Part shown: piece by piece, positions 9,051 to 50,464 of the stretch
Layout: every line of letters begins with the position of its first letter
Numbering within the stretch: the stretch's first letter is position 1
NCBI GenBank assembly: GCA_937124965.1
Contig: CAKZLB010000036.1
Span: 124,001-188,000 of the forward strand
Direction of reading: 5' to 3'
DNA length: 64,000 nucleotides
Source: an uncultured Bacteroidota bacterium
GTDB taxonomy: Bacteria > Bacteroidota > Bacteroidia > NS11-12g > UBA9320
Program-made: the position numbers and the translations under genes
Notes under the pieces: generated by a model
Seen by the model: only the letters and a program-made list of their open reading frames with translations
Told to the model about the DNA's origin: nothing
Database searches by the model: none

Positions 9051-9461
9051 ATGTCTAAACTAATTCTACTTGGTTTATTTATCACGGTTTTGACCTCGTG
9101 CAGTAATCAACCAAAAAAGAAGTCGTCAGAGAAAGCCGATATGTATGAGGCTTCTGAAGTTTCTGCAACCATGCGAACCATGGTTGAATTTTCAAAGCAA
9201 GCCAAGAAATCGTTGAGTGAAGGACAATCCGTCGATTCAATTCCTGCTGTTATATGGGACTTAGCAAGTGCAACTGCAACCCGCGACGAACACAAAGATG
9301 AAGAGTTTCAAACGATGGTAAAACCCTACTTGTCTGCACTTCGTGGTATTGAACGCGGAGATTCTCAATCGTATTACTACCACAAATCTATCGATGCATG
9401 TAAAACATGTCACGCAGTTTATTGTGGTGGTCCGATGGCGATTATTAATCAGTTAGATTAA
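9051..9461 (+). CDS. Lipoprotein with single haem c motif
   Basis: A 136-residue lipoprotein. I chose the ATG at 9051 over a TTG at 9042, because it gives a clean signal MSKLILLGLFITVLTSC with C17 as lipid site. The middle is helical and charged. Near the C-terminus CKTCH (residues 117-121) is a CXXCH covalent haem motif, followed by AVYCGGP with one more cysteine. The one-motif, C-terminal layout resembles cytochrome c'-like four-helix proteins more than class I cytochromes, but the axial ligand is not clear. It would be an envelope electron carrier or gas/redox sensor. The end overlaps the convergent PKD gene by 4 nt. Confidence 0.75.
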   Translation: MSKLILLGLFITVLTSCSNQPKKKSSEKADMYEASEVSATMRTMVEFSKQAKKSLSEGQSVDSIPAVIWDLASATATRDEHKDEEFQTMVKPYLSALRGIERGDSQSYYYHKSIDACKTCHAVYCGGPMAIINQLD

Positions 9462-12400
9462 TTAATAACTGTTATCTTCTTTCGAATTACTCCTTGTTCT
9501 GTTTGAAGAATTAGGAAATAGTTTCCTGAGACTAAATTATCAGCAACCACCTCTACCCTATTTATTGATTTGTGATTTACATCAACAGCAACACTTTGAC
9601 CAAATACATTAATCAGCTCAACTGAATGTATGGTGTTCGAGGTTAACGTCGAAATTGTAAATGAACCATTTGTTGGATTAGGATAAACGGATGCGAACGG
9701 CATTAAATGATTTATTCCGTTTACCGAGTCGGGCAATATAACTACAACTAAATCGATTCCTGGTCGCGTGGTTGAATCTTTTTTATGAGGATAATATGCT
9801 AGGCAACGTTGAGCACTTCCAGTAATGGTGTCTTCCATGTAAAGATGAGGATAATACGTACCAACTTGTTTGTAATTGTGCTTTAACGTTTCAGTAGGAT
9901 TAACTGATGACGTTGTAGAATTATCACCCCAATTCATGATAAACTGTGGTTGATTGAATGGCACTAAACTGGTGTTTTTTATGGTCAATTCATCTTTCAA
10001 ATAAATCGTTGCGGTGTCAATAACATTCCAATTAGGGTCTCCAACAAACTCAAATTTAGGTTGTGGTCCTTCAATGACTAATTCCTTGGTAACACTATCT
10101 GTACACTGCAATAAGCTGTGTGTTTTCAAAGTGACCATGTAGGTCCCAGGTTTAGAGTATGTGTGTGGTGGGTTTTTCAGAACAGAACGTACCGATCCAT
10201 CACCAAAATTCCATTCATACCAAACAATGCTATCAGCTCCTGTTTGTGTGTAAGTAGTCGAACTGTCAAAAAAGTTGTAGCTTTTACTACAAGGATCTCC
10301 ACCTGCTAATTGTATTTCTCCAATATTTGTGTTTAATCCTGTAACATCAACCGTCACCTGAGCCGTGTCCAAACATCCCATCGAATCTTTAGCAAATAGT
10401 GTAATAGTGTATTCTCCTGGTGTATCGTACATATGATAAAATTGTATTGCTCGTTGTTTATCATTTCCAATTCCATCACTTGCATCCCAATCCACCGACT
10501 TCGTTTCAATACTTTGAACATACCTCTTTGGGTCTTCCCAAAATTTACGTGGGTCAATTGGGTAATCCCTTGGATACTTATCGTCGCCCAATTGCCAATA
10601 TCGAATTGAATCAAAAAGGTAAACTCCTTCATTGTTACAGACAGCAGCTTCATCTAATTTCAAATCCATTAAATACCCAACGTTCAATAGTTTTGCAGAA
10701 CTTTTCTCACAACCAGTGGTATTATTCATAAAAACTCCTGGTATCATTGCACCTGTAGACAAAACAAAAGATGTGTCTCTTTTACCATCGTCATCTATGG
10801 TTACCTCATATTGTGCATATTGATGTTTCCACACGCCAGTGATGGTATCTACCCCATCATAAAGTGTATCAAAACCTTGCAGAGACGAATCTCTAAAGTG
10901 CAAAATTTCGGCAACTTCTATCGAATCTGTCTTTGCACTATTTGTATATCGGTACCTTTTTCCATTGTTATAAAAAACTGAACCACCATTTTCGATTTTA
11001 TATTCTCGTGGGGTTAAATATTGAGAAATTCCTGTAGTATCAATGCATGATCCAAAATAACCAGATAGTTCTGGGCCGGTCATATTTCGTAACTGTTTAG
11101 CATCTGGCCCATCTAAATGAGCACGTAAAGAGTCGTCCATTTCCAGCCAAACATCTTTAACGATTGCCGTTACGATAGTGTCTATAATTTCGATCTTAAC
11201 GTTATTACCAACTTCATACAAGTTGTTTCTCACTACATAATTATAATACCAATTTTCCCCTTTGTATTTAACGTCCTTATCATTTCTATTTGCTTTTGGT
11301 CCCGTATATTCTTCTAAATAAACAAATTGTTCAAAATAAGCTGATAGTCGATCATGGTCACCCCAATTCCACCGCATCGCAGCGATGTTGTTTAATTTGT
11401 CATTAGTAAGCTTAAAATAAACGTCTTCTCCTTTACAGACACCCGATTTTCCATTTAGTATTTCAAAATCCGCATCCATTTGTTCATATGTTAATATGTT
11501 GTGATACCATGCAGTATCCAAACACTCTGCGGGTTTACCTGACGAACTAGCTGGCCCGTTTCCAACAATTAGGCCTATCGTAATATTTCTTGGGTTATCT
11601 TTTTTTCCGATTTCTCCCGAACTATAACCTTTTAATATCTGGTTTTGCCAAGTACCAACGATATCATACGGCAAAATAAATGGAATTGGACTTCCAGGTG
11701 CTTTTGGAGCCAGAATACCTCCTGAGGTATACTCAACAAACGTTGACGAATTAGTAGAATCAAAGTTTACCGCAAAATACGATTGACTGTTAGTTCCAAG
11801 ATCGAAAGTCATGTAATAATTCAATTTGTTCCCATCTAATGGACAGGTAACGCCACTGATTAATTTCATGTTGGAAGCGTCTGGTTTTGAGGTGATAACA
11901 TCAACCTCATCCCGTGACTCATATCCATTAACCGTGTCTTTTAAGAAAAGTTGTGCTTTGTAATCATGGGTTCTGGTTGACATGTAAGTCAATCGATGTA
12001 ATTGTTTGTTTGACGTATCAATTAATTCTGTTTTGCACGTGCCGTTTGCATAAACTGTTTTGTAAAACGTATCATTTGTTAAATAGTGATTCTTGTAATA
12101 CAATGAATCCCAATTGGGATATTTATGAACTGGAAACTCATCAGTACTAAAGTTACAATTCATTCCGACATTCACTTTTTTGTCAGTTGAAGTGGTGCAC
12201 TGATTTGCATATTTATCACCAAAATTCCATAAACGTGTTACGTGGTCACCTTTTCGGTTATCTAAGTGTTTTTGTGAAGTAAGCGCTGTTTGGTCTCCTA
12301 CTCGTGTAACTTCTTTATAATTGAAAGCGTAAAACCTTTTTCCGCTTAAAGTTACAATTGAATCTTCATCAAACACGTTTGCATCATTGCCCCAAAATAA

Positions 12401-13636
12401 GCTATTGTTGGTAAAATGGACGGTATCAATCACATTGCATTGATACTTTTCTTTTTCAGGAATTCGGTTGAACGGTATTTCTATTTGCGCTACTGGCCCG
12501 ACAATATTTATAGTATCAAATACCACCTTGTTGCATGGTCCGCTAACAACGCGCAAAGACACCATTTTGGGTCCGAGACTTGAGAAAACATGACTCGGTG
12601 TCCAGGTTTTATTTTCAGTGTTTAATGTTCCGCTTGGTGGATCACCAAAATTCCATAAAAATGATGCCCCTGGAATTGGCCCATATACTGTACTAAAATC
12701 TATCTCTTGTCCAATTTGGGCAATTTGAGGTGTACTCGTAATCTTAGGTCTGATTTTAATATTTGTGGCAATTCCTTTTAATGTATAAGAATCTTCGCAC
12801 CCAGCCTTAGTCGTAACCATTAGAGTCAAATTGAAGGTTCCATGTGTTCTATATTTTTTTTCTACATAACCTGACTTACCCTTCCAATCGCCTGCGTGTG
12901 CAATAGAATCGCCGCAATGCATTTCTCCGTCACCAAAATCCCAGCAAAACCGCGCAACACTGTCAAAATCTATTTTACTTTCATTCGTTAATCGCACTAC
13001 CGTTGTATCACAGCCAATAGCCGAATTACCTGTTACCAATAAGTTTAAACTTGGCCTCAAATAAGCAATATTTTCAAATTCTTTTATCGAAACACATTCG
13101 TTACTGTCGTATGAGGTTACTTTGAGGCTAATGTAACCACCTTTTGTGTCACTGGAAGTATGGCACTGAGTTCTTGGAAAACTTGGATTATTTACTGTAT
13201 ATCTTGCTCCATCACTAAACTCATAAATTTGTCGATTTACCTTTTTTGCAGGAACTGTTTCATCATAAAAACAGAATTCATGTCCTTTAAAGCATTGGAC
13301 ACTATCTTTTGTTAGGCTAATTTTAATTTCTGGTGATTTTGCTACTGTGATATCAAGAGTATCTAAGCAAGTACCAGAAGGGCCATTGGCTTTAAAATAA
13401 ATTTTGTATTTACCCGGACTATTAAAGATATAAGATGGGTCTCGATTCGTAGAAAAAACGGTGCTTCCAATCTTCCATTCATAACTTGAGAATCCAGGCG
13501 CATTAGCCGAGAAAAAGAGCTTCCCTTTACTACAAATTAAACCTTTAGGAACCGATGGATTGCATTGAGCTATGGCCGAATAGTTTATTAAAACACTAAA
13601 AGAAACTAGAAAAATGTAGGAGAAAATCTTTGTCAT
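9458..13636 (-). CDS. Giant PKD-repeat T9SS cargo protein, downstream paralogue
   Basis: A 1392-residue secreted protein. The signal peptide covers residues 1-23 and the mature end starts QCNP. It has at least six PKD-type domains marked by W-x-FGD or NWGD cores (CWDFGDG, LWNFGDP, LWNFGDK, RWNWGDH, EWNFGDG, MNWGDN). They are separated by Cys-containing spacers and a long central region without PKD motifs. The T9SS type A sorting domain starts at about residue 1317 (VYPNPTNGSF) and ends KKITVIN. Domain order matches the upstream neighbour at 13831-17934 almost block for block, so the pair arose by tandem duplication. Many paired cysteines suggest disulfides. Probably surface exposed; adhesion or matrix function is inferred. 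Confidence 0.9.
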   Translation of the reverse strand: MTKIFSYIFLVSFSVLINYSAIAQCNPSVPKGLICSKGKLFFSANAPGFSSYEWKIGSTVFSTNRDPSYIFNSPGKYKIYFKANGPSGTCLDTLDITVAKSPEIKISLTKDSVQCFKGHEFCFYDETVPAKKVNRQIYEFSDGARYTVNNPSFPRTQCHTSSDTKGGYISLKVTSYDSNECVSIKEFENIAYLRPSLNLLVTGNSAIGCDTTVVRLTNESKIDFDSVARFCWDFGDGEMHCGDSIAHAGDWKGKSGYVEKKYRTHGTFNLTLMVTTKAGCEDSYTLKGIATNIKIRPKITSTPQIAQIGQEIDFSTVYGPIPGASFLWNFGDPPSGTLNTENKTWTPSHVFSSLGPKMVSLRVVSGPCNKVVFDTINIVGPVAQIEIPFNRIPEKEKYQCNVIDTVHFTNNSLFWGNDANVFDEDSIVTLSGKRFYAFNYKEVTRVGDQTALTSQKHLDNRKGDHVTRLWNFGDKYANQCTTSTDKKVNVGMNCNFSTDEFPVHKYPNWDSLYYKNHYLTNDTFYKTVYANGTCKTELIDTSNKQLHRLTYMSTRTHDYKAQLFLKDTVNGYESRDEVDVITSKPDASNMKLISGVTCPLDGNKLNYYMTFDLGTNSQSYFAVNFDSTNSSTFVEYTSGGILAPKAPGSPIPFILPYDIVGTWQNQILKGYSSGEIGKKDNPRNITIGLIVGNGPASSSGKPAECLDTAWYHNILTYEQMDADFEILNGKSGVCKGEDVYFKLTNDKLNNIAAMRWNWGDHDRLSAYFEQFVYLEEYTGPKANRNDKDVKYKGENWYYNYVVRNNLYEVGNNVKIEIIDTIVTAIVKDVWLEMDDSLRAHLDGPDAKQLRNMTGPELSGYFGSCIDTTGISQYLTPREYKIENGGSVFYNNGKRYRYTNSAKTDSIEVAEILHFRDSSLQGFDTLYDGVDTITGVWKHQYAQYEVTIDDDGKRDTSFVLSTGAMIPGVFMNNTTGCEKSSAKLLNVGYLMDLKLDEAAVCNNEGVYLFDSIRYWQLGDDKYPRDYPIDPRKFWEDPKRYVQSIETKSVDWDASDGIGNDKQRAIQFYHMYDTPGEYTITLFAKDSMGCLDTAQVTVDVTGLNTNIGEIQLAGGDPCSKSYNFFDSSTTYTQTGADSIVWYEWNFGDGSVRSVLKNPPHTYSKPGTYMVTLKTHSLLQCTDSVTKELVIEGPQPKFEFVGDPNWNVIDTATIYLKDELTIKNTSLVPFNQPQFIMNWGDNSTTSSVNPTETLKHNYKQVGTYYPHLYMEDTITGSAQRCLAYYPHKKDSTTRPGIDLVVVILPDSVNGINHLMPFASVYPNPTNGSFTISTLTSNTIHSVELINVFGQSVAVDVNHKSINRVEVVADNLVSGNYFLILQTEQGVIRKKITVIN

Positions 13637-13830: not shown

Positions 13831-16800
13831 TTAGTCAACTATGGTCACTTTTTTACGAATAGTTCCTTTTTGAGTGTGAATCGTTAAAATGTAATTTCCG
13901 GTTATCGCACCAGACGTTTGTAACTGAATAGTATTCACATTCAAATATTCAATTTTTGTCGACAGTTCTTGTCCATAGATATTCGTAAGCCTAGCATCTA
14001 AAATGCTATTATCCATACCAATCAGAACCTTAAATGCTCCTGTATTTGGATTTGGATAAACGTTGGCATCCAACAAATGTTCTGTGACAGCGTTCAACGA
14101 ATCTGCAAGTACAATGACAACCCGTGTAGTTTGCGGCACTTGCCCAGTAATTGGGGTATATGGATAATACGCATCACAACGCGTTGAAGTTCCTTCTAAT
14201 CTGTCGTTCATTAACATATATGGATAGTATGTTCCTGGTTGATTGTAGCTATGTTTATTGGCAGTGTGACCTAAGTCGGTAAAAGAACCATCACCCCAGA
14301 ACAAGATAAATGTTGGACTGTTCATTGGCACAAAACTGTAGTTAAAAACTAAAATTGTGTCTTTTTGATAAATCGTCACTGTATCAGGTATTAAACTTGG
14401 AGCGCTTCCATCAAAATTAAAAAATGGCTTCGCCCCTTTCACCTCAATATTCTTTGTTTTCTTGACATTACATCCTAAAGCAGACGTCGATTTGAGTGTT
14501 ATTCTATAATCTTCAGGTTTTTTAAAAATATGGACAGGGTTCGCAGTTTTATTTAATAGTGTATCATTCTCAACTATCCATTCTCTTTCAATTACACTAT
14601 CGTTAAATTCGGAACCACTCGAAAAAGTAGATGTGTCTGTAAACTGATATACTCTATCACAAGTATCCAGAATATCAATTGAGAAGTCAACGTTAACACC
14701 AACTACTTCAACATTAGATTGTGCAGTATCCAAACACCCTAAGGAATCTCTAGCAAACATGGTTAATGTATATACACCAGCAGTTTTGTAAATATGGAAA
14801 AAATTTAAAGCACGTGATTTAGCGTTTCCTATTCCATCAGTTGAATCCCAATCTATCGACTTAACTTCAAAACTTCTTGCGTATCGAAATGGATCTTCCC
14901 ATAACTTGCGTGGGTCAATAGGGTAATCATTTGGAAATGAATTGGCCCCCAACTGAAAATATCGGATAGAATCATAAAGTTGGACAACATCATTTTCGCA
15001 GACGAGATCAGTTAATGGCATGAACTTTAACAGAAACCCAACTGTAATTGGATTCGTTCTTTGCGATGAACACCCATTTAAATTGTTCAAGGTTAAACGA
15101 GGGTTCATTCCCCCCACGGAGTTTTTAATCGTTGTATCAAAGTCACCGTTATTAAAGATAATTTCACGATGTCTATAAACGTGTTTCCAAACTCCTTTTA
15201 TGGTGTCAGTACCTTTAATGTAGGTATCAAACCCTCTAAGTGAGGTGTCTCTATAATGCAAGATTTGAGCAACCTCAATGGAATCTTTTTTGGAATCATC
15301 AAGGTAACGATAGCGCTTTCCATTGTGATACGTCAATAAGCCGTTTCTATTATCTCGATATTCTCTTGGAACGAAATACTGCGATAGCCCAGTCGTATCA
15401 ATAGATTTTCCAATATACTGGTAGACTTCGTGATTTGGAATTTCTTCTACAAAATGCCCTGGAGTTGATGCTGCATGAATTTTGGGTCCTGTATAATCCA
15501 ACCGATACTCTTTCACAATCGCTGTGACTATGGTGTCCAACACGATTGTTCCTTCATCCACATTTGTTTTTTGTCGAACTACGTAATTGTATAGCCAATC
15601 TTCCCCATTATACTTCACGTCTTTGTCGTTTCGGTTGGCTTTGGGACCGTCGTACTTCTGCAAAAGATAATTCTGTTCTGAATAGCTCTCTTCGTTGTTA
15701 GCATCTCCCCAATTCCAACTTAACTGTGCTATTTCCGATTGATTCGGATTCTCCAACTGAAAATACACCGTATCTCCTTTGCAAAAACTAGAACCCGATT
15801 TTGAACCCAGAATTTTAAACTGTGGTTGTAGCAAGTTAGACTGAATTGGATTGGTGTACCAAACGGTGTCTAAACAAGCTGGCGGTTCTCCTGACGAGCC
15901 TACTGGTCCATTGCCAACAATCACGCCCATTACATTTTTTGACTGTTGTAGTTTCTTTAAATCATCTTGAGAATATCCTTTTACAAATTGATCCGTTAAT
16001 TTGGCTGAAGTTAGTTGCACAAAACCATCCGGATTTTCAGCGCTATCAAAGTTTATAGCAACATATGATTGACTGCCAGTATTTAGATTGTAGGTAATGT
16101 ATGTGGTATCGTTTCCGACTTCGTTCAAACATGATGTATTAACATCTACAGTCATTTTCGAGGCGTCTGGTTTTGTTGCATAAATTACGATTTCATCGGT
16201 CGACTCGTTGCCTGAGACAGTATCCTTTAACCATAATCTGGCGGTGTAATTATGCGCAATTGTTTTATTAAAAATATCGTAGTGAAGCAATTTGTCTGAG
16301 GTATCAACAGCTATGGTCTTACTCGTTCCAATATAATAAGACGTGTACTCAAATGTATCGTTGTTGTTGTAATACTGTTTTAAATAAACAGAATCCCAGT
16401 CTTGATATTTGTGAACCGGAAACTCATCAGTACTAAAATTACAGTTTTTACCAATATTTAAATTTTGTTCGGTTGACGTAGTGCATTGTTCCGCGTACAC
16501 ATCACCAAAATCCCACAATCGTTTCACGAGACTGCCCATGGTTCTATTGGCAAAATGCCTCGTATTGGTTACTGCAGTTTGGTCACCATGCCATGTGGTG
16601 AAGTCATAATCAAAAACGAATCGTTTCTTACCGTTTACATAGACGACTGAATCTTCATCTTCTGGGTCTGAATCATTTTGATAGAACAACGAATTGTTTG
16701 TAAAATGGATCGTATCAGTCATTACACATTGATAGCGTTCCTTTGAAGAAACTCTAACGTTAGCAGCTTCAATTCGTGCTAACGGTCCTAATACTTGTAA

Positions 16801-17934
16801 AGTGTCAAATGCGCGTTTGTAACATGGACCTGAAACAATTGTAAAAGAGATCATTTTTGGTCCGAGGCTTGAATACCTATAACTTGGCGTCTGTGTTTTA
16901 TCATTATAATTCATTATTCCACTCGATGGCTCTCCAAACTCCCATCGAAAATAAGCACCTGGCACAGGGCCAAGTGCCATCTTAAAGTTAATCTCTTCGC
17001 CAACCTGAACACTGTCTAAATGTCCACTAATTGTAGGTTCGAAACCTATATTAGTTGCCGCAGCTTTATAAGAATATTTATCTTCACATCCATACTTTGT
17101 TTTTACGCTAAGTGTTAAATTAAACGTCCCATAAGTCCGATACCATTTTTCTATTCTTCCATCCTTTCGCTTACCAAACCAGAATTCGTTGTTCGTAATT
17201 GAGTCTCCACAAACGGTATCTCCATTTCCGAAATCCCAACAAAAAGTAGCAATGTCTTTAAGTTCTATCAAACTCTCGTTTGTAATTCTTGCCATGGTAG
17301 AATCGCATCCAACTGGCGAATTACTCTTGATCTTAAGACCTATTGTCGGGTGAACGATTAAATCATCGTGGTAGACTTTACGCGCAACACATCCACTGCT
17401 GTCATAAGACTCTACAGTCAACTTGTAACTTCCACCTTTAGCATCCTTAAAAGCGTGACATTCCGTTCTCGGAAAACTTGGATTTTGAACGACTACTTCG
17501 TGTCCATCGCTAAATCTATATACTTGCTTGTAGACCTTCGACACAGGAATAGTGGAATCAATAAAACAAAATTCATTTCCTCTAAAACACTGTTTATTTT
17601 CGCCTTTCAAGGCTAAATTTATTTCAGGAATAGGGAAAACTGTTAATGAAATTGATTTATCACATGTCCCTGATGGCCCTTTTGCGCTTAATTGAATGAT
17701 ATAAGTACCAGGCTTCGAAAACGCTTTAAACGGATCCCTGTCAAAACTCTCAGTTCCATCGCCAAAGTCCCATGAATAAAAGGTAAACCCAGGTGCGTTC
17801 GACTCAAATTTAAGCAGTTGTTCGGCACATATTTTCCCAGTAGTTTTAAGTGTAGGGTTGCATTGTGCGCTTGCATCAACGGTTAAAACAGATAGTAAAA
17901 AAAGTAAGAGTATCGACGAGGCTAGTTTTGTCAT
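13831..17934 (-). CDS. Giant PKD-repeat T9SS cargo protein, upstream paralogue
   Basis: A 1367-residue protein with a signal peptide to about residue 23 and a mature end QCNP, as in its paralogue. PKD cores include SWDFGDG, CWDFGNG, RWEFGEP, LWDFGDV, SWNWGDA and FWGDGS. A highly conserved block PIDPRKLWEDP followed by SIDWDSTDGIGN lies near residue 1000 and has a close match in the paralogue. The sorting domain begins at about residue 1292 (VYPNPNTGAF) and ends KKVTIVD. The two genes are 196 nt apart and share both coding and immediate 5' leader similarity. One PKD motif of the paralogue (EWNFGDG) is degenerate here (EWIVEND). Confidence 0.9.
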   Translation of the reverse strand: MTKLASSILLLFLLSVLTVDASAQCNPTLKTTGKICAEQLLKFESNAPGFTFYSWDFGDGTESFDRDPFKAFSKPGTYIIQLSAKGPSGTCDKSISLTVFPIPEINLALKGENKQCFRGNEFCFIDSTIPVSKVYKQVYRFSDGHEVVVQNPSFPRTECHAFKDAKGGSYKLTVESYDSSGCVARKVYHDDLIVHPTIGLKIKSNSPVGCDSTMARITNESLIELKDIATFCWDFGNGDTVCGDSITNNEFWFGKRKDGRIEKWYRTYGTFNLTLSVKTKYGCEDKYSYKAAATNIGFEPTISGHLDSVQVGEEINFKMALGPVPGAYFRWEFGEPSSGIMNYNDKTQTPSYRYSSLGPKMISFTIVSGPCYKRAFDTLQVLGPLARIEAANVRVSSKERYQCVMTDTIHFTNNSLFYQNDSDPEDEDSVVYVNGKKRFVFDYDFTTWHGDQTAVTNTRHFANRTMGSLVKRLWDFGDVYAEQCTTSTEQNLNIGKNCNFSTDEFPVHKYQDWDSVYLKQYYNNNDTFEYTSYYIGTSKTIAVDTSDKLLHYDIFNKTIAHNYTARLWLKDTVSGNESTDEIVIYATKPDASKMTVDVNTSCLNEVGNDTTYITYNLNTGSQSYVAINFDSAENPDGFVQLTSAKLTDQFVKGYSQDDLKKLQQSKNVMGVIVGNGPVGSSGEPPACLDTVWYTNPIQSNLLQPQFKILGSKSGSSFCKGDTVYFQLENPNQSEIAQLSWNWGDANNEESYSEQNYLLQKYDGPKANRNDKDVKYNGEDWLYNYVVRQKTNVDEGTIVLDTIVTAIVKEYRLDYTGPKIHAASTPGHFVEEIPNHEVYQYIGKSIDTTGLSQYFVPREYRDNRNGLLTYHNGKRYRYLDDSKKDSIEVAQILHYRDTSLRGFDTYIKGTDTIKGVWKHVYRHREIIFNNGDFDTTIKNSVGGMNPRLTLNNLNGCSSQRTNPITVGFLLKFMPLTDLVCENDVVQLYDSIRYFQLGANSFPNDYPIDPRKLWEDPFRYARSFEVKSIDWDSTDGIGNAKSRALNFFHIYKTAGVYTLTMFARDSLGCLDTAQSNVEVVGVNVDFSIDILDTCDRVYQFTDTSTFSSGSEFNDSVIEREWIVENDTLLNKTANPVHIFKKPEDYRITLKSTSALGCNVKKTKNIEVKGAKPFFNFDGSAPSLIPDTVTIYQKDTILVFNYSFVPMNSPTFILFWGDGSFTDLGHTANKHSYNQPGTYYPYMLMNDRLEGTSTRCDAYYPYTPITGQVPQTTRVVIVLADSLNAVTEHLLDANVYPNPNTGAFKVLIGMDNSILDARLTNIYGQELSTKIEYLNVNTIQLQTSGAITGNYILTIHTQKGTIRKKVTIVD

Positions 17935-41468: not shown

Positions 41469-43094
41469 ATGAACGGATTTTTCAAAGTTCCAAAACCAAC
41501 AAACGAACGTGTAAGAGACTATGCTCCAAACACTTCTGAAGTTACGAATCTAAAGGCCAAATTAGCAGAAATGCGTGCTGAACAGAGAGATGTGCCTATG
41601 TACATCGGTAATCAGGAAGTGCGTACTGGAAATACAAAAACAATGCATCCACCGCATGATCACAAACACACATTAGGTCATTTTCATGTTGGAGACAAAA
41701 GCCATGTTCAAGATGCGATTGATGCGGCCCTAGCTGCAAAAGAAGATTGGGAAAACATGAGCTGGGAAAACCGAGCAACCATTTTCTTGAAGGCAGCAGA
41801 ATTAATAGCAGGACCTTATCGAGATGAGATTAACGCAGCAACTATGCTTTGTCAAAGTAAAAATTGTTACCAAGCTGAAATTGATGCCGCTTGTGAGTTA
41901 ATCGATTTCTTGCGATTTAATGTTCAATATGTTACAGAGATATACGCAGAACAACCACCTGCAAATTCTCCAGGCGTTTGGAACAAACTTGAATATCGAC
42001 CACTTGAAGGATTTGTTTTTGCAATTACACCTTTTAACTTTACGGCTATTGCCGCAAACTTACCAGGCAGCCCAGCATTGATGGGAAATACAGTTGTTTG
42101 GAAACCAGCAGAATCTCAAATTTATTCTGCTCACGTTATCATGAAAGTATTTAAAGCCGCAGGTTTACCTGATGGTGTTATAAACTTGGTATACACGCCA
42201 GGTCCAGATGCTGGGGATGTCATATTTAAACACAGAGACTTTGCAGCGTTGCATTTTACTGGTTCCACAGGAGTGTTCAGACACTTGTGGAAAGAAATTG
42301 GAAATAACATTGCAAACTACAGAACGTATCCTCGAATTGTAGGAGAGACTGGTGGGAAAGACTTTGTAATGGTTCATCGCTCGTCAAATGCTACCGAAGT
42401 TGCAGTTGCATTGGCACGTGGGGCTTTTGAATTTCAAGGTCAAAAATGTTCAGCGGCTTCTAGAGCGTACATACCAAGTAATATTTGGAGCGACGTTAAA
42501 ACACAACTTTTAGAAATGATGGCCGATTTCAAAATGGGACCAACAGAAGATTTTGGAAACTTTATTAACGCTGTCATCGATGAAAAGTCTTTCGATAAAA
42601 TTGCGGCTTATATCACGAACGCGAAAAAAGATGGTGAAGAAATTATAGCTGGTGGAAACTTTGACAAATCAGCTGGTTACTTCATTGAACCAACTGTAAT
42701 AGTTGCTTCATCACCAACCTACACCACTATGTGTGAAGAGATTTTCGGACCTGTTTTGACTATTTACGTTTACGACGAAGACAAGTTTGAAGAAACGTTG
42801 GACTTAGTTGATTCAACAAGTGAGTACGCCTTAACAGGTAGTATTTTTTCAAATGATCGATACGCAGTAGAGTTGGCAACAAAGAAGCTAAGAAATGCAG
42901 CTGGAAACTTTTACATCAATGACAAACCAACTGGAGCTGTAGTCGGACAACAACCATTCGGTGGTGGTCGCGGTTCTGGAACGAACGATAAAGCAGGTGC
43001 TAAAGGCAATTTAATGCGTTGGACAAGTATGAGAACAATCAAAGAAACTCTTGTGCCTCCTACCGATTATAGATACCCGTTTCACCAATCATAA
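41469..43094 (+). CDS. pruA: 1-pyrroline-5-carboxylate dehydrogenase
   Basis: A 541-residue aldehyde dehydrogenase that makes glutamate from P5C. The catalytic Cys is C327 in GQKCSAASRAY and the general-base Glu is in GETGGKD. Conserved also: ITPFNFTAIAANLPGSPALMGN and GQQPFGGGRGSGTNDKAG. The length and the C-terminal MRTIKETLVPP match the single-domain (not PutA-fused) bacterial form. A terminator follows at 43181. Confidence 0.95.
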   Translation: MNGFFKVPKPTNERVRDYAPNTSEVTNLKAKLAEMRAEQRDVPMYIGNQEVRTGNTKTMHPPHDHKHTLGHFHVGDKSHVQDAIDAALAAKEDWENMSWENRATIFLKAAELIAGPYRDEINAATMLCQSKNCYQAEIDAACELIDFLRFNVQYVTEIYAEQPPANSPGVWNKLEYRPLEGFVFAITPFNFTAIAANLPGSPALMGNTVVWKPAESQIYSAHVIMKVFKAAGLPDGVINLVYTPGPDAGDVIFKHRDFAALHFTGSTGVFRHLWKEIGNNIANYRTYPRIVGETGGKDFVMVHRSSNATEVAVALARGAFEFQGQKCSAASRAYIPSNIWSDVKTQLLEMMADFKMGPTEDFGNFINAVIDEKSFDKIAAYITNAKKDGEEIIAGGNFDKSAGYFIEPTVIVASSPTYTTMCEEIFGPVLTIYVYDEDKFEETLDLVDSTSEYALTGSIFSNDRYAVELATKKLRNAAGNFYINDKPTGAVVGQQPFGGGRGSGTNDKAGAKGNLMRWTSMRTIKETLVPPTDYRYPFHQS

Positions 43095-43180: not shown

Positions 43181-43225
43181 AAACCCTTTAAATGCCTTAT
43201 ATACAAGGCTTTAAAGGGTTTTTTG
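43181..43225 (+). terminator. Strong terminator after pruA
   Basis: AAACCCTTTAAATGCCTT pairs with AAGGCTTTAAAGGGTTT across a 6-nt loop with one bulged T, followed by more T. It separates pruA from the gldL-like operon, so the latter starts its own transcript. Confidence 0.85.
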
Positions 43226-43329
43226 TTTTTAATAGAATTTTAAAACTGCACAAGCATTTTCCTATTGGCATGTTCGTTGCAACCTTGATAGTGATTACAC
43301 ATTTTAAACTTTATAACAATCGGTAACTT

Positions 43330-43830
43330 ATGCGAAAATTCGATTTATTAAATTTTTTCTATGGCCTAGGAGCAGCAATTATTCTTGTTGCGGCCTTGTT
43401 TAAATTTCTCGGTCTAGAAGGCGCTGACGCCTTATTTATTGTTGGTCTTGTCGGAGAGGCCATCATTTTCTTAATTTCAGGTGCTCAACCTGTATTTAAA
43501 CAACGTACCTATAACTGGGAACGTTTATTCCCACAACTCGACAGAGATGAGGATGATGAAGCTGTTGCTACAGTTTCTATGGAAAATGCTGAAGTAACAC
43601 AAGAACAGCAGATTCAGCAAATCATTCAATCTATTGTTGGTCTTAATTCTTCAGTAGAAAACCTAAACAGTGCTACACAACGGTTGACTGGTTACGTAGA
43701 GAAACTTGAAACCAATTACGAAATGGTGAATAGTTCTACGTTAGACTATCACAAAGAAATTAACAGCTTGAAAATTAAAATTGCCTCGGCAAACGACAAG
43801 CTTAAAGAATTTGAAAACTATAAGTTTTAA
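43330..43830 (+). CDS. GldL-like motor protein (T9SS/gliding type), divergent
   Basis: A 166-residue GldL homologue; canonical GldL is about 215. Two membrane helices (about residues 10-27 and 34-52) are followed by a coiled-coil tail (about 85-165). In the helices K25 and the transmembrane E43 (GLVGEAIIFL) match known proton-path residues. Glutamine (Q53, SGAQPV) stands where the canonical proteins, as I recall, have a second glutamate. Family role: with GldM it forms the inner-membrane proton-driven motor of T9SS and gliding. No gldK precedes it. The gene is 5 nt from the gldM-like gene. Confidence 0.85.
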   Translation: MRKFDLLNFFYGLGAAIILVAALFKFLGLEGADALFIVGLVGEAIIFLISGAQPVFKQRTYNWERLFPQLDRDEDDEAVATVSMENAEVTQEQQIQQIIQSIVGLNSSVENLNSATQRLTGYVEKLETNYEMVNSSTLDYHKEINSLKIKIASANDKLKEFENYKF

Positions 43831-43835
43831 GAACT

Positions 43836-45518
43836 ATGGAGTCAAGTTCTCAAAAGTTGAGGCAAAAGGCCATTAACCTTTTGTACCTCATATTTCTGGC
43901 TATGATATTTACATATATCTCGTCAGATTTCGTCGACACGGTCCAAAAAAGTGACCAAACAACAAGCATACTTGCCAATGAGGTCAAGTTACAAACCAAT
44001 CGGTACAATCTGATGGTGATGAATCACTTACAAAATGATTCAAGCCGATATGAAGATACAAAGCACCAGATTGCTACAATTGATAAGATTACCAATGTTG
44101 AATTAGATTTTATTGACAGTCTAAAGCTTGCTTTAATTGATACCGAAGGATTTAATGAATTCGGGTACTTCAAAGGAGGCAAGCGTGAAGTTTCTGCAAA
44201 CAAAGTTATGATCGATGGTAATCAAGCTAAAAAATTATTTCAACGGTTAAATGAATACAAGTTGAATATCAGCCAATTTGTTGAGCCTTTAAAAGCAGAT
44301 CAAATTGATTCAATTATGCCGCTCAATAAATTTGAATATAAATCAGGCGGCCAGTTGGTGAGTTCAGAAAAGTTTTTCTTTTCAAAATTGCCTCTAACAA
44401 TTTCCGTTCTGAACCTAACAAATTTTAAAAGCAAGGTTGAACTAATTCGAAGTTTCGTTATTAATAACACAGTTCAAGATGCTGTTGACAAGACCACATT
44501 TCCATTGCCAACGCAATTATCTCAGGTCATTAAGTCAGAAGATCAAGTAATTGGATCCAGAGAATACATACCCATTTTTCTGGATCAAGTAAATTGGGAC
44601 TCTTTAATCGTGTATGAAAATGCAACCGTAAAGCAAATTCGCAATAAAGTTGTAGGTGAAATAAAAGACAGAAAGAGTAGGCTGTCAATAGAATCTTTAA
44701 GCGATTCTGTTTATGCCGTAGGAAAGCCTGTACGATTTGAATTTACGTTTAACGATAATGGGTCAACCCCGCTAAACATTCGCCTTGAAGATCCTCAAGG
44801 AAACGAAAAACTATTTACGTTAAATAAAGCTGGCACATTTCTTTTTGTGCCTGAAATGAAAGGGTTTTACCAATTGAGATTTTCAAGTGGTGAATTATCT
44901 GGCCGAAAAAATATTAAAGTAATCGACCTTAAACCGATACTAGAAAACGGAGATATTGGGACCCTATATATTGGAATCAATAATGAACTAAAACTTAGGA
45001 GCTCAGAGTTTGAAGACACTGAAGGGCTTCAAGCAAGAATATCTGAAGGGAAGATTTTCAAAAGAGGTGAAAGCTTTTACGCTAGAGTTTCTGAACCAGG
45101 TGAAGTACGAATTGAAGTTTTTGCGAAAATGGAGTATGGTTTTGTTAAAATAGCTGACAAAAAATATGTTGTACGTAATTTGAATCCACCTATTGCCACT
45201 TTGGCAAACAAAGAGCAAGCAACAAAAATATCGATGGCCGAATTAGAGGCTGCGAAAGCATTATCAATCAGATCTGATGAATTGTTAGTAAACGAACAGT
45301 TTTATATCTCTGATTTTGAATTAACAATAATTTACAACAATCACACTGCGATTTTAAGACCAATTCCAAATAAAGGAAATACATTAAACGCATTAAGTAT
45401 TGATGCTCTTTCAAAAGCTGAGCCAGGCGATATAGTTATGTTTAACAAAATCAAGGCAAAGTCTTCTTTAGGTACAGACACGGAACTACAACCATTAACG
45501 TACACAATCACTAACTAA
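43836..45518 (+). CDS. GldM-like motor protein
   Basis: A 560-residue protein. The N-terminus QKLRQKAINLLYLIFLAMIF is clearly the GldM transmembrane start, with the conserved basic residue before the helix. A helical periplasmic stalk domain (residues 35-200) follows, then strand-rich domains (about 220-560). Those parts diverge strongly from canonical GldM, with weak FEF and LTYTIT strands at the end. The protein should span the periplasm and move with GldL. It lies 5 nt after the gldL-like gene and 11 nt before the barrel fusion gene. gldN is absent. Confidence 0.85.
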   Translation: MESSSQKLRQKAINLLYLIFLAMIFTYISSDFVDTVQKSDQTTSILANEVKLQTNRYNLMVMNHLQNDSSRYEDTKHQIATIDKITNVELDFIDSLKLALIDTEGFNEFGYFKGGKREVSANKVMIDGNQAKKLFQRLNEYKLNISQFVEPLKADQIDSIMPLNKFEYKSGGQLVSSEKFFFSKLPLTISVLNLTNFKSKVELIRSFVINNTVQDAVDKTTFPLPTQLSQVIKSEDQVIGSREYIPIFLDQVNWDSLIVYENATVKQIRNKVVGEIKDRKSRLSIESLSDSVYAVGKPVRFEFTFNDNGSTPLNIRLEDPQGNEKLFTLNKAGTFLFVPEMKGFYQLRFSSGELSGRKNIKVIDLKPILENGDIGTLYIGINNELKLRSSEFEDTEGLQARISEGKIFKRGESFYARVSEPGEVRIEVFAKMEYGFVKIADKKYVVRNLNPPIATLANKEQATKISMAELEAAKALSIRSDELLVNEQFYISDFELTIIYNNHTAILRPIPNKGNTLNALSIDALSKAEPGDIVMFNKIKAKSSLGTDTELQPLTYTITN

Positions 45519-45529
45519 AACTTAAAGCA

Positions 45530-47734
45530 ATGAAAGAATTAAAAAATTACATACAGAAAAATACCATTATTGCGCTAGTAGCTTTAGTTAGCCTTTATAG
45601 CAACGCACTTGGACAAAGTTCAAAACCATTTCCGAAACTAACGTCGGCTGACGTTACGCTGGATACTGGGAAATACATTGTACGCGGCAATAATGTCATT
45701 GCCCAAAATGTTACTCTTACCATCAAGCCTGGCACAGAACTATTTTTTGAAAGAAATGCAATCGTACAGGTATTTGGAGGATTAGACATTCAGGGAACTC
45801 CTGGCAACTTTATCACAATCACGAGTAACGACTTAGATAATTTAGGCATGGGGTTTCTTTTTCAAGACGAAAGTCAACAAAGTATCCATATCGAATATGC
45901 CGACTTTACCTTTTTAAAACGGTCGTTAAAGTTTTCTAAGAACTGGTTACGCTCAAGTGTAAATATTAGTAATAATATGTTTCACGACCTGAACAATGGG
46001 ATATACTTTGAAATTCAAGAAGTAGATAAGATCCTAATTCAGAATGACATAGACATTACCATAGCAAGCAACACATTCGGAAACAACGCAGGTAGCTTTA
46101 TGATTACGGATGCGGCATGGGATCAAGTTCATTTCACAATTAAAAACAATGTGTTCTCACGGAATGAATTTATTGGTCGTGAGTTGAACGGAATATTTAC
46201 AACGCCATTGTTTCTTAACTACAATGAACCATTTGATGATATTCCACAACCAACTATTGAAGATAATAGCGTAAGCTTTAACTATGTAGGGCTAATAAGT
46301 CATGATACCGTAGAGTTTCTGCCAGTTTACTTAACTTCTGTAGGAACGGCTGACAAGTTGGATATTTCTCCAAATTACTTTGGGAAAGAGGTCGACAAGT
46401 ATTTAGAAATGAGTGCGGAAAACATTCAATCTATGCAAAGAGCTCCTTACTTGATTTACAAAAATACACTTCAAAAACCCCTTGAATCTAATAATGGGCA
46501 TGTTTACAAAGTTGGAGTAAATGGTGTTGAAATTGACAACCCTAGTTATGATATCAGAATAGACGAGAAAACGGAAGTTATCGAGTTAATCAACAACAAG
46601 CCGGGTTCAATAAGATCGGATTTTACTGTAACATACATTTACCTGGAAAACGACACCATTCGACGGTATGGTTTAAAAAATAAAGTAGAAATGCTTAATG
46701 GTGGATTGAAGATAAAAATTAAGCTAAATGACAAAATTGTCAAACGCTTTAATCATGGATACCTTGAAATAGCAGGAATCGAAGATCCAAATGGCTTTCT
46801 ATTTCCAATGGTAAGTGTTGGGCTAAAAACCTTCTTAAATGAAAACAGAGAGTACTTGGTAAACGTGTTTGATTATATGGCTATTCCAAGAATGGACATC
46901 GGAGAAAGCGAATACCAATTAAAACCATTGGATAGTTTAAAATATGTCGAAATTGACACAAACATTGAGATTGATACGAATGAGATATTGAAACGTGAAA
47001 AGTATTGGGACTTCGAAATTCAAGCTAGTTCAACCGTATATTTTGGAGATCTGGTAACTTCAACAGTATCGTTCTTTTTGCCGAATGCACGACCTCATTT
47101 TGGATTCCGTGTTGGTTACAATTTGAATGAACATTTGAGAGTTCAAGTACGCCAAAACACATCAATGCTGGCAGGTGACGACAAAAAGACTTCAACGATT
47201 GGGCAACTCAGAGGGACAAACTTTGCAAGGGGATTATCCTTTAGAACTATGGTTTACGACCTTGGAGTTGGAGTAAATTATGCACCGCTAAGCTCTAGAA
47301 AAATGAAAGGTTTTATTCCAAGTGTTCACGCAGGAATCTCTGGGTATTACTTCAACCCGCAAGCCGAATATGAAGGAAAATACTACAACTTGAGAAAGGT
47401 AGGAACCGAAGGACAAACACTTGACGGTTCTAAATACGCTTACCAACGTTTTGCAGTTTCAATTCCGTTTGGATTTCAAATTGAACGACACATCAGTCAG
47501 AAAATGGTGTTGGGGTTTGCGTGGACATATCATAAGCTTTTTACAGATTACTTAGACGACGTTAGTACAGGAGAGTTTCCTGACGCCGAATCACTTAAAG
47601 CAGTAAACCCTGATTTAGGAGATGTCGCTGTTAAACTAAGTAATCCGAATAATATTACTGGAGGACCGAGATCCAGTAGTGCCGACAACGATGGTTATGC
47701 CTATTTCGGGCTAACTTGTCGATGGAAGCTGTAA
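45530..47734 (+). CDS. Right-handed beta-helix fused to PorG/DUF6089-like outer-membrane barrel
   Basis: A 734-residue exported protein. Its signal peptide ends near residue 28 (NALGQ). Residues 45-300 show a repetitive short-strand pattern (for example GGLDIQGTPGNFITITSNDL) suggesting a right-handed beta-helix. A strand-rich linker follows to about 490. The end (about 490-734) resembles the DUF6089/PorG-type barrel: FNPQAEYEGKYYNLRKVGTE, FTDYLDDVSTGEF, NDGYAYFGLTCRWKL with an aromatic-rich C-terminus. PorG partners PorK/PorN of T9SS. This looks like the outer-membrane element for the neighbouring motor. The helix part is inferred from pattern only. Confidence 0.7.
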   Translation: MKELKNYIQKNTIIALVALVSLYSNALGQSSKPFPKLTSADVTLDTGKYIVRGNNVIAQNVTLTIKPGTELFFERNAIVQVFGGLDIQGTPGNFITITSNDLDNLGMGFLFQDESQQSIHIEYADFTFLKRSLKFSKNWLRSSVNISNNMFHDLNNGIYFEIQEVDKILIQNDIDITIASNTFGNNAGSFMITDAAWDQVHFTIKNNVFSRNEFIGRELNGIFTTPLFLNYNEPFDDIPQPTIEDNSVSFNYVGLISHDTVEFLPVYLTSVGTADKLDISPNYFGKEVDKYLEMSAENIQSMQRAPYLIYKNTLQKPLESNNGHVYKVGVNGVEIDNPSYDIRIDEKTEVIELINNKPGSIRSDFTVTYIYLENDTIRRYGLKNKVEMLNGGLKIKIKLNDKIVKRFNHGYLEIAGIEDPNGFLFPMVSVGLKTFLNENREYLVNVFDYMAIPRMDIGESEYQLKPLDSLKYVEIDTNIEIDTNEILKREKYWDFEIQASSTVYFGDLVTSTVSFFLPNARPHFGFRVGYNLNEHLRVQVRQNTSMLAGDDKKTSTIGQLRGTNFARGLSFRTMVYDLGVGVNYAPLSSRKMKGFIPSVHAGISGYYFNPQAEYEGKYYNLRKVGTEGQTLDGSKYAYQRFAVSIPFGFQIERHISQKMVLGFAWTYHKLFTDYLDDVSTGEFPDAESLKAVNPDLGDVAVKLSNPNNITGGPRSSSADNDGYAYFGLTCRWKL

Positions 47735-47769: not shown

Positions 47770-47788
47770 CATGTATCAAACAGCACGT

Positions 47789-50464
47789 ATGAAGTTACTA
47801 AAAAAAGTAATAGCAATCACTGCGGTGGTTGCTATTCTTATTGTAGGGGTATTGGTGGCGATACCTCTAATTTATAAAACAGAAATCGTTCGTTTAGTCC
47901 AAGCAGACTTAAATGAAAACTTAAATGCAACAATTTCATTTGACGAGGACGTATCCGTTAAGATATTAACGTCATTCCCAGATTTAACGGTTTCGGTAAA
48001 AAATCTAACCATTATCGGAACAGAGGTTTTCCAAACTGACACATTGGTAAATAGCGGAAAAATTAAAGTTACCATAGGCCTAAAAGAGTTATTTAATAAT
48101 CATCAAATCAGTTTGAAATATGCTGAACTAATTGACACAGACATTTCCTTACTTGCAAAAGACAATCAGTATAATTGGGATATTGCAAAGCCTACTACTT
48201 CGGATAGCTCTAACACTGCATTTTCCGCCGACTTTAAAAAAATAAAACTTCAAAATTGTAGCTTCACGTATTTAGATTCAAACTCGACGGTCGAAGTTGG
48301 TGTAGACGGAATCACTGGGTCTTTAACCGGCGAATACGCTACCGATAGTTTTGACTTAGTGTCGTTGTTTACCAGTGAAGACACATACATTTCATACGAC
48401 AATGTTGCCTACCTCTCCCACCTACCTCTATTTGTTGAAGCAACAACCGCTGTGAATTTTGCAACCGAAACTTACAATTTCAAGAAAAATGCTTTCACAC
48501 TCGGAGATATTGAACTAGTGGGTAATGGGATTATGAAATTTATTGGAGACAACATTTCTCTAAATATAAATTATAACTCTAATAAAACAGACTTTCAGCA
48601 ATTACTCGGACTAGTACCAAACTACTACAAGGAAGACCTAAAAGAAATTCAAGCCTCTGGTAAAGCGTCTATTGAAGGGACTTTAAATGGATTAATTACT
48701 GAAACTGATATCCCAGGGTATACCTTTAAAATGAAATTGGAGGATGGTAGTTTAATTCACAAACAAATCCCCAAACCAATTTCAAAGGTAAATATTGACT
48801 TAGCGGTTGAGAATAAGGATGGCAAGGACGAAAACCTTCAAATTAAAGTTTCAGACTTCTCATTTGTTTACGAAGACAATCCGTTTTCTGGAAATCTATT
48901 TACATCAAATATTTTTGACAACCCATTTGTGGACGCACGTGCGAAGGGAAAACTTAACTTAACTGATTTAAGCACGTTGATTCCTCGAGAAATGGGTATG
49001 GATGTTTCAGGTACTATGAATTGCGATATTGCAATAACTGGATCTGAATCTTCTTTGGTTAACGAAGAATATAACAAACTAAAAACTTCAGGCCTGTTGG
49101 AAGTTGATAATCTGACCTATACCGATAAAACCTTACCAAATCCAATTAATATAAGCAAGGGTAGAATGAACTTTACCGAAAGTGAAGTAAAAATTCCAGT
49201 GTTGTCTCTTACTGCCGGGAAATCAGACATAGCTGCAAATGGGTCTGTAAAAAACCTAATTGGATACCTTATTTCAAACCAAACATTACTCGGCAACATC
49301 ACTGTTTCTTCTTCAATACTAAATAGTTCTGATTTTGTTTACCCATCTGAAAACTCTAATGAATCGGAGGTTTCAGACCCAATAGAGTTACCAGAGAATA
49401 TGGATGTAAAGCTGGTTTACACTATTGATCAGCTGAACTATGATAATCACTCTTTTACACATTTATCTGGTTCGGGAAAACTGGCAGACAAAGCGTTAGA
49501 CTTGACTCAACTTTCAACTGATTGTTTGGATGGACGGTTAATGTTAAGTGGTAAATTCAACACCATTGACATTACTAAACCGTTCGCAGACATTAACCTT
49601 ACTGCTCAAAATATTAATATTCAAAAAGCCTTTAAATCGTTTGAAACAATCCGCCTATTGGCACCAATTGCAGAAAATATAGTTGGGAAACTATCCTCTA
49701 CCATTTCAATTAAAACTGTTTTACAAGAAGATTTCAGTCCCAATTTGTCAAGTATTACCTGTCAAGGCGTTTTAGATTTATTTGATTTTGATTTAAAAGG
49801 ATTGAAAGCATTTAATCAAATTGGTAACAAATTAGACTTAGCTAGCTTTTCTAGAGACATCTCTATTAAAGATTTGCTCATGAGCTTTAGCATAAAGGAT
49901 GGAAAAATAGAAGTAAACCCGTTTACCCTTCCTATTGGTGAATCGACGTTAAACTTAGTAGGATACTCAAAACTTGATCAAAGTATCAACTTTGATGGGT
50001 TGTTATCTATTCCAAAACAACTGTATGAAAAAAAGAAAGGGTCGTTAAACACGTATATACCGACAAACAAACTTGGTGAACTTAAGAATATTGAGTGGTC
50101 TGATGTTGAATTTGATGTTTCTATTATTGGCACCTACAAAAAACCACAACTAAAGATTGACTACCATTCAACGCAAAACAGAATCGTTGACAATGTCAAG
50201 TCAAGAATCCAATCGGAAGCAGACAAGAAAAAAGAAGAACTGCGTATCGCTGCTAAAAACGAATTAGATAAAGCAAAAATGCAGGCTGATGCCGCAAAGA
50301 AAGCAGCGGAAGATGAGGCGAAGAAAGCGCTGGAAGAACAAAAGAAGAAACTTGAAGAGCAATTAAAAAAGGAAAAAGAAGCTGGTAATAAAGCAGTTGA
50401 AGACGCATTAAAAAAGAAGCGAGACGAATTACTAAAAGGTAAAATTCCACCGATAAAGCGATAG
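47789..50464 (+). CDS. AsmA-family envelope protein
   Basis: An 891-residue protein; the start ATG at 47789 gives MKLLKKVIAITAVVAILIVGV, a single N-terminal anchor. The body matches AsmA/YhdP-type domains, a long beta groove thought to carry lipids between membranes: LNATISFDEDVSVKILTSFPDLTVSVKN and a C-terminal part with VEVNPFTLPIGESTLNLVGY-like strands. Residues 808-891 form a Lys/Glu/Ala-rich coiled coil, longer than usual. Likely acts in outer-membrane homeostasis. Has its own promoter and is not part of the motor operon. Confidence 0.88.
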   Translation: MKLLKKVIAITAVVAILIVGVLVAIPLIYKTEIVRLVQADLNENLNATISFDEDVSVKILTSFPDLTVSVKNLTIIGTEVFQTDTLVNSGKIKVTIGLKELFNNHQISLKYAELIDTDISLLAKDNQYNWDIAKPTTSDSSNTAFSADFKKIKLQNCSFTYLDSNSTVEVGVDGITGSLTGEYATDSFDLVSLFTSEDTYISYDNVAYLSHLPLFVEATTAVNFATETYNFKKNAFTLGDIELVGNGIMKFIGDNISLNINYNSNKTDFQQLLGLVPNYYKEDLKEIQASGKASIEGTLNGLITETDIPGYTFKMKLEDGSLIHKQIPKPISKVNIDLAVENKDGKDENLQIKVSDFSFVYEDNPFSGNLFTSNIFDNPFVDARAKGKLNLTDLSTLIPREMGMDVSGTMNCDIAITGSESSLVNEEYNKLKTSGLLEVDNLTYTDKTLPNPINISKGRMNFTESEVKIPVLSLTAGKSDIAANGSVKNLIGYLISNQTLLGNITVSSSILNSSDFVYPSENSNESEVSDPIELPENMDVKLVYTIDQLNYDNHSFTHLSGSGKLADKALDLTQLSTDCLDGRLMLSGKFNTIDITKPFADINLTAQNINIQKAFKSFETIRLLAPIAENIVGKLSSTISIKTVLQEDFSPNLSSITCQGVLDLFDFDLKGLKAFNQIGNKLDLASFSRDISIKDLLMSFSIKDGKIEVNPFTLPIGESTLNLVGYSKLDQSINFDGLLSIPKQLYEKKKGSLNTYIPTNKLGELKNIEWSDVEFDVSIIGTYKKPQLKIDYHSTQNRIVDNVKSRIQSEADKKKEELRIAAKNELDKAKMQADAAKKAAEDEAKKALEEQKKKLEEQLKKEKEAGNKAVEDALKKKRDELLKGKIPPIKR

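Follow-up and report, generated by a model that had tools for sequence, protein, structure and literature searches.

The window, a 64,000-nucleotide (nt) stretch of a contig from an uncultured Bacteroidota bacterium, carries a compact plus-strand operon of three genes (43330-47734) encoding a GldL-like protein, a GldM-like protein and a third, exported protein, which we named GldL', GldM' and X, respectively. These names, like Ma and Mb below, were coined in the present analysis. On balance, we favour the reading that the operon encodes a second 5:2 proton motor of the GldLM class, which acts independently of the type 9 secretion system (T9SS) and has X, not the GldK/GldN track, as the target of its shaft. 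Our best guess is that the motor works mechanically on the outer membrane or the envelope. The initial annotation of this stretch had proposed a second GldLM-type motor tied to a new beta-helix/PorG-like partner with a surface or transport function. Conserved gene order and a separate GldL branch uphold the motor and its new partner, but the surface or transport role of X was not upheld.

The motor subunits GldL' and GldM'

GldL' matched the Pfam model GldL_N (2.8e-18) and passed the NCBI GldL model TIGR03513 (75.2 bits; cut-off, 68.3). In a tree of 53 GldL proteins, a 100/100 branch split the canonical proteins (28) from the alternative ones (25). Four rows were omitted from this tree (two duplicates, one fragment and one interrupted by a stop), and some alternative rows were long-branched, that of locus L104 most of all. 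Since GldL' falls in a deep group of its own, it is no recent duplicate. TIGR03513 thus labels proteins of the GldL' type as T9SS GldL although they form another group. The glutamate of the second transmembrane helix (TMH2) was present in all GldL rows of the alignment, 28/28 canonical and 26/26 alternative. Its equivalent in Flavobacterium johnsoniae GldL, E49, is needed for motor function according to PMC8986121.

GldM' matched the model TIGR03517 at 5.9e-31, yet its 107.8 bits fell short of the cut-off (180), compared with 297.5 bits for the genome's canonical GldM. The Pfam matches were GldM_1st (7e-10), GldM_4th (7e-6) and GldM_3rd (8e-5, below its cut-off). Arg9, a residue that is important in GldM, was kept in 13/13 single-GldM proteins of the alternative family. 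The single-chain model of GldM' (predicted local distance difference test (pLDDT) 72.6; predicted template modelling score (pTM) 0.40) aligned with solved GldM/PorM structures, namely with 7sau over 213 residues (1-216; Z 22.9; root-mean-square deviation (rmsd) 4.0) and with 6ey6 over 186 residues (366-559; Z 16.7; rmsd 6.1). The match to 7cmg extended over 413 residues (30-560; Z 20.8) with an rmsd of 45.5, indicating that the relative placing of the domains in the model disagrees with this structure. Domain by domain, GldM' is predicted to share the GldM/PorM fold from the transmembrane helix to the C-terminal domain.

One of the known systems closest to the GldL'M' pair is the GldL/GldM (PorL/PorM) motor of the T9SS and gliding. 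The subunits are homologous, the TMH2 glutamate and the shaft arginine are common to both, and the predicted fold of GldM' is alike. The differences are the separate branch, an operon of its own without gldK and gldN, the partner X, a shorter GldL in most members, and a version with two GldM proteins in one branch. The available text of PMC9389320 distinguishes two length classes of GldL and does not describe a gldL'-gldM'-X system.

The genome also encodes a canonical machinery. The contig that bears the operon also holds, at a distance of approximately 132 kb, a complete gldK-gldL-gldM-gldN-gldN cluster (G000:C36, ~303.7-309.3 kb), whose GldK, GldM and two GldN products all exceeded the NCBI cut-offs (GldK 534.8, GldM 297.5, GldN 149.1 and 146.2 bits). 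The cluster also holds two PorP/SprF-family genes, and sprA and porG are present in the genome (true porG, 150 bits, above the cut-off). A separate gldKLMN set had been proposed as a check in the initial annotation; given that it was found in full, the idea that gldL'M' is the only motor of this genome was rejected.

Protein X as a candidate receiver of the motor's force

X was modelled as a single chain with moderate confidence (pLDDT 68.5; pTM 0.53; 8 sequences). The model starts with a signal helix, which is followed by a parallel beta-helix, an immunoglobulin-like (Ig-like) region and an eight-stranded barrel (Table 1), in agreement with the exported beta-helix joined to a PorG-like barrel that had been read from the sequence initially. 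The beta-helix aligned with the PL6 lyase 8bwk over 189 residues (28-251; Z 14.2; rmsd 3.0; VIA-align, from the Foldseek list) and with the phage tailspike 6f7k over 212 residues (28-312; Z 12.0; rmsd 3.8). The barrel aligned with OprF 4rlc over 135 residues (Z 14.7; rmsd 2.8) and with OmpA 1qjp (Z 13.7), and the structural matches listed for X were mostly barrels. Residues 503-729 matched the PorG model NF052316 at 6.6e-15 with 55.4 bits (cut-off, 130), and the match to DUF6089 was weak and below its cut-off. X thus resembles PorG in the eight-stranded barrel and in recognisable sequence similarity. It differs from PorG in a score far below the family cut-off, in the large N-terminal beta-helix and Ig-like region, and in the lack of the C-tail cysteine that bonds GldK.

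Outer-membrane barrels with an even number of strands normally have both ends in the periplasm. As the beta-helix of X precedes such a barrel, it should lie in the periplasm and face the motor; from this general knowledge of barrels, we consider it probably periplasmic. Eight-stranded barrels of this class are also too narrow for protein transport. Both points speak against the surface or transport role initially ascribed to X. The orientation likewise bears on the explanation that X is a surface-exposed beta-helix adhesin, dragged by the motor through the outer membrane as an alternative gliding system. The beta-helix fold is widespread among adhesins and glycan-binding proteins, and X matches a lyase and tailspikes. 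Against the adhesin stand the expected periplasmic position and the absence of a type 9 sorting domain from the Pfam and NCBIfam scans of X. A further point against the adhesin comes from GldL'. In F. johnsoniae, GldL E59 is required for SprB movement and dispensable for SprB secretion, as reported in PMC8986121. The window's GldL' and four relatives have Gln at this position, although Glu is kept in 16 of the 26 alternative rows (the others being Q 5, D 3, R 1 and K 1); the canonical rows have E in 26 and L in 2. Considering these observations together, we regard the adhesin explanation as improbable.

The relationship between the barrel of X and PorG speaks for a different explanation, in which GldL'M' serves the T9SS or gliding as an auxiliary motor. 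Driven by it, X would push either the GldK/GldN track or the translocon SprA, a role also ascribed to PorG. We consider this unlikely, although it deserves serious weight. PorG is bonded to GldK through a C-tail cysteine, according to PMC12635249. A cysteine of this kind was found in 0/27 X C-termini examined, one of which is barrel-less. The sole near-end cysteine among them, C730, occurs in the window's X only, lies inside the last predicted strand and is unconserved. A conserved X cysteine bonding GldK was therefore rejected. Elsewhere in the genome, 4 of 5 PorG-like proteins, including the true porG product, have a cysteine within the last 12 residues. The fifth (C42) has none, and hence the missing cysteine alone does not set X outside the T9SS. 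A further argument against the auxiliary role is that no GldK, GldN or SprA gene occurred within the X operons as far as these were read.

One genome, G137 (L213:5725-14351), provides a point in its favour. Here X has 449 aa and no barrel, and a gene for a PorE/CHU_0125-like TPR-propeller-OmpA protein comes next with a 4-nt overlap (NF052230, 284 bits, cut-off 600; CHU_0125 model, 325 bits, cut-off 620). No such gene stands beside X in the window. The arrangement in this one genome also fits an exchange of the anchor, in which the beta-helix would be the working part and the barrel the anchor. The gene after it (L213:11445-14351) is likewise PorE/CHU_0125-like and has a SPOR domain.

Under the reading that the motor drives X directly, the following mechanism can be envisaged. 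By homology within the 5:2 proton motors (MotAB, ExbBD, GldLM), two GldM' helices would be enclosed by five GldL'. As protons pass at Glu43 against Arg9, the GldM' shaft would turn or swing through the periplasm, and the tip of the shaft would push the periplasmic beta-helix of X and not a GldK/GldN track. The PorG-like barrel would hold X in the outer membrane. As X would be held by its own barrel, one protein would do the jobs of GldK, GldN and PorG, receiving the force and anchoring at the outer membrane. If this is correct, GldLM motors can serve functions beyond secretion and gliding, the module having been redeployed for another output in the manner of MotAB-like motors. In addition, a one-protein receiver would be far simpler than the T9SS for studying how a GldM shaft transfers force to the outer membrane.

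Distribution of the gene set and the branch with two GldM-like proteins

A conserved neighbourhood had been named initially as a test of the proposal, and the gene set did recur across families. We tabulated 25 operons, none with a gap above 50 nt, from six family-level groups and one named metagenome record; G032 was omitted from this table. In the window's family (f1, 38 genomes), X was full length in eight genomes and broken in a ninth (G032), and G014 held a remnant. At 9/9 of these X loci (eight intact, one broken), gldL' and gldM' preceded X, and pruA was upstream at 8/9, directly in six and with one gene between in two. An N-terminal X profile detected 21 of the 108 genomes of the order, namely the nine f1 genomes and, with weaker scores, 12 of family f2. 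The order in f2 was L-Ma-Mb-X at 8 of the 10 fetched loci (9 of the 12 genomes), with X running off the contig in two of the eight; at the remaining two loci, the contig ends before the motor genes.

In a sample of the class (395 genomes), X was present in 15 genomes at 168 bits or more, with the next score at 48; five of the 15 belong to f1. The other 77 of the 92 class genomes matched by the X profile aligned with it only over short stretches, scoring no more than 48 bits, and were left out of the X count. Outside f1, gldL' and gldM' stood beside X at 8 of 10 class loci, and the other two (G329 and G407) end at contig ends. A scan of named genomes matched at least 592 stretches, caught by the PorG barrel, from which 80 loci were kept. 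Only two of these, L104 and L109, matched the GldL', GldM' or N-terminal X profiles. L109 is interrupted by the contig start, and in L104 (CANGDH010000007.1, Bacteroidetes bacterium isolate Jr-25may17-108) the genes again follow one another as gldL'-M-X. The GldL' of L104 is 504 aa long (L104:4972-6486), and its C-terminal extension of ~400 residues had no Pfam or NCBIfam match at E 0.05. Given this conservation of gene order across families, the three-gene set is more than a chance arrangement.

The sparse distribution and the signs of loss in G014 and G032 would also suit a functionless remnant of a duplicated T9SS motor. We think this improbable, since gldM' and X are intact across genera at 35-44% identity, dN/dS was low, and GldL' forms its own deep group. 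Comparing G034 with G032, dN and dS were 0.019 and 2.8 for the first 117 codons of gldL' and 0.049 and 3.1 for gldM', with dS near saturation in both cases.

Several observations weigh against a T9SS-independent motor that drives X. First, the models of GldM' and X are of single chains, and the pLDDT of X was the moderate value given above. Second, the gene set is dispensable: G014 holds a remnant only, and in G032 gldL' is interrupted by an in-frame stop and the reading frame of X is broken, although the defects of G032 may represent either decay or an assembly error. Third, in a sample of the phylum at E 1e-15, the gene set was found in 1/395 genomes, which was the window's own, and in none of the other 394. 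Finally, the carriers also have a T9SS. Among the 31 X-bearing genomes of the order and class samples, a separate canonical GldL was found in 29, GldN in 29 and SprA in 30, and in the carriers at least 90% complete each of the three was found in 22/22. This leaves room for action within the T9SS and supports the auxiliary-motor explanation. However, GldL was found in 371/395 genomes of the class sample, in which the count cannot tell a second copy from a single gene matched in pieces. The T9SS is thus nearly universal in the class, and its co-occurrence with X says little.

The f2 and f12 operons (n=13; L170-L175, L177, L179, L210-L212, L217, L218) contain two GldM-like genes, encoding Ma and Mb, which lie -1 to 2 nt apart. 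In all 13 operons read, a small protein with a signal peptide and, by eye, a coiled coil is encoded before gldL'. In one scanned pair (L171), neither Ma nor Mb matched the NCBI GldM model, and Ma gave only weak GldM_4th and filamin-type matches in Pfam. Profile comparison related both proteins to the single-GldM family over nearly their whole length (13 Ma, probability 98.9, E 1.2e-17; 13 Mb, probability 99.2, E 2.5e-19), and the Ma and Mb profiles to each other (probability 98.9, E 1.5e-17). The shaft arginine, eight residues before the invariant tyrosine, was present in 13/13 Mb and 0/13 Ma, which have Ser (9), Asn (3) or Thr (1) instead. Given that every Mb and no Ma has the arginine, a heterodimeric axle with a single arginine is the simplest interpretation; in f2/f12, an Arg-bearing and an Arg-less GldM probably pair to form the axle. 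The f2 and f12 GldL' rows grouped together (support 97/89), although f2 belongs to the window's order and f12 lies outside it, which suggests transfer or old differential loss.

A motor with two different inner subunits recalls AglRQS of Myxococcus gliding, a 5:2-type motor with two MotB-like subunits in which heterodimer formation is described as an open question (PMC9389320); the inner subunits of f2/f12 are GldM-like. We tentatively extend our reading to an undescribed envelope machine of the Bacteroidota, in which a GldLM-type proton motor passes its force to X, a single protein that would act both as track, like GldK/GldN, and as anchor, like PorG, and in which the f2/f12 axle is an obligate Arg/Arg-less heterodimer. 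Taken as a whole, this extended proposal falls slightly short of what we would call probable. With such an axle, only one shaft would be able to pair with the proton-carrying glutamate, and, if true, the branch with two GldM proteins would offer a natural test, through its single-Arg axle, of asymmetric-axle models of 5:2 motors. In the open-access literature, covered mostly at abstract level and with preprints outside the scope, no description was found of a GldLM operon that has a beta-helix/barrel protein as partner or encodes two GldM proteins.

Operon surroundings and other gld and por genes

The open reading frame (ORF) list of the window places the three genes exactly where they had been annotated, with gaps of 5 nt between gldL' and gldM' and of 11 nt between gldM' and X. 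The coordinates are collected in Table 1.

Table 1. Positions in the window of the operon, its encoded domains and flanking elements
Feature	Position	Strand	Description
rho-independent terminator	43183..43232	+	between pruA and the operon; RNA fold and T-run
gldL'	43330..43830	+	166 aa; GldL-type motor subunit with a short cytoplasmic coiled-coil tail
codon of Glu43 in gldL'	43456..43458	+	equivalent of F. johnsoniae GldL E49 (proton-carrying Glu, TMH2)
gldM'	43836..45518	+	560 aa; GldM-type shaft, transmembrane helix and periplasmic domains
codon of Arg9 in gldM'	43860..43862	+	cytoplasmic end of the shaft's transmembrane helix
X	45530..47734	+	734 aa; exported beta-helix / Ig-like / PorG-like barrel protein
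X residues 30-275	45617..46354	+	parallel beta-helix, predicted periplasmic; model strands 42-274 (helix from ~40)
X residues 315-430	46472..46819	+	Ig-like beta region; model strands 325-430, Ig-like assigned by eye
X residues 490-734	46997..47731	+	8-stranded PorG-like outer-membrane barrel; eight long model strands 492-733
AsmA-like gene	47771..50464	+	897 aa; 36 nt 3' of X; weak AsmA model match, far below cut-off

Upstream of the operon lie murB, an RluA-type gene and pruA (41469-43094; TIGR01236, 787 bits; cut-off, 613.6), and downstream lie the AsmA-like gene and then rplS. The operon stands behind a strong terminator, whose hairpin had a folding energy of -18.3 kcal/mol (z = -4.24; 0/200 shuffles equally stable); this hairpin is absent from the list of a simple terminator pattern scan. 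Profile scans of the neighbouring window genes found no gldK or gldN adjoining the operon, and both gldN genes of the genome are in the canonical cluster, so the initial description of this neighbourhood was accurate. The AsmA-like gene was considered as a fourth operon member and rejected, because it is downstream in 5/9 f1-family operons and is retained in G014, where the trio is gone. It is probably a neighbour outside the machine.

Other observations concern the remaining gld and por genes of the genome. The canonical gldN genes are duplicated as adjacent copies of 277 and 279 aa (L006:8690-10497). A third motor at G000:C17:59765 was rejected; the locus encodes a solitary membrane protein of 171 aa in which one stretch weakly resembles GldL, and no gene of the GldM type was found beside it. 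Directly 5' of the true porG, a PorG-like gene (G000:C13:533995-535736) ends in a Cys-bearing tail of its own, and in many relatives, too, PorG-like matches lie next to each other in pairs. Finally, on the minus strand of the window, two adjoining genes (9458-13636 and 13831-17934) encode giant proteins that carry PKD domains and type 9 sorting domains, and both are likely cargo of the canonical T9SS.

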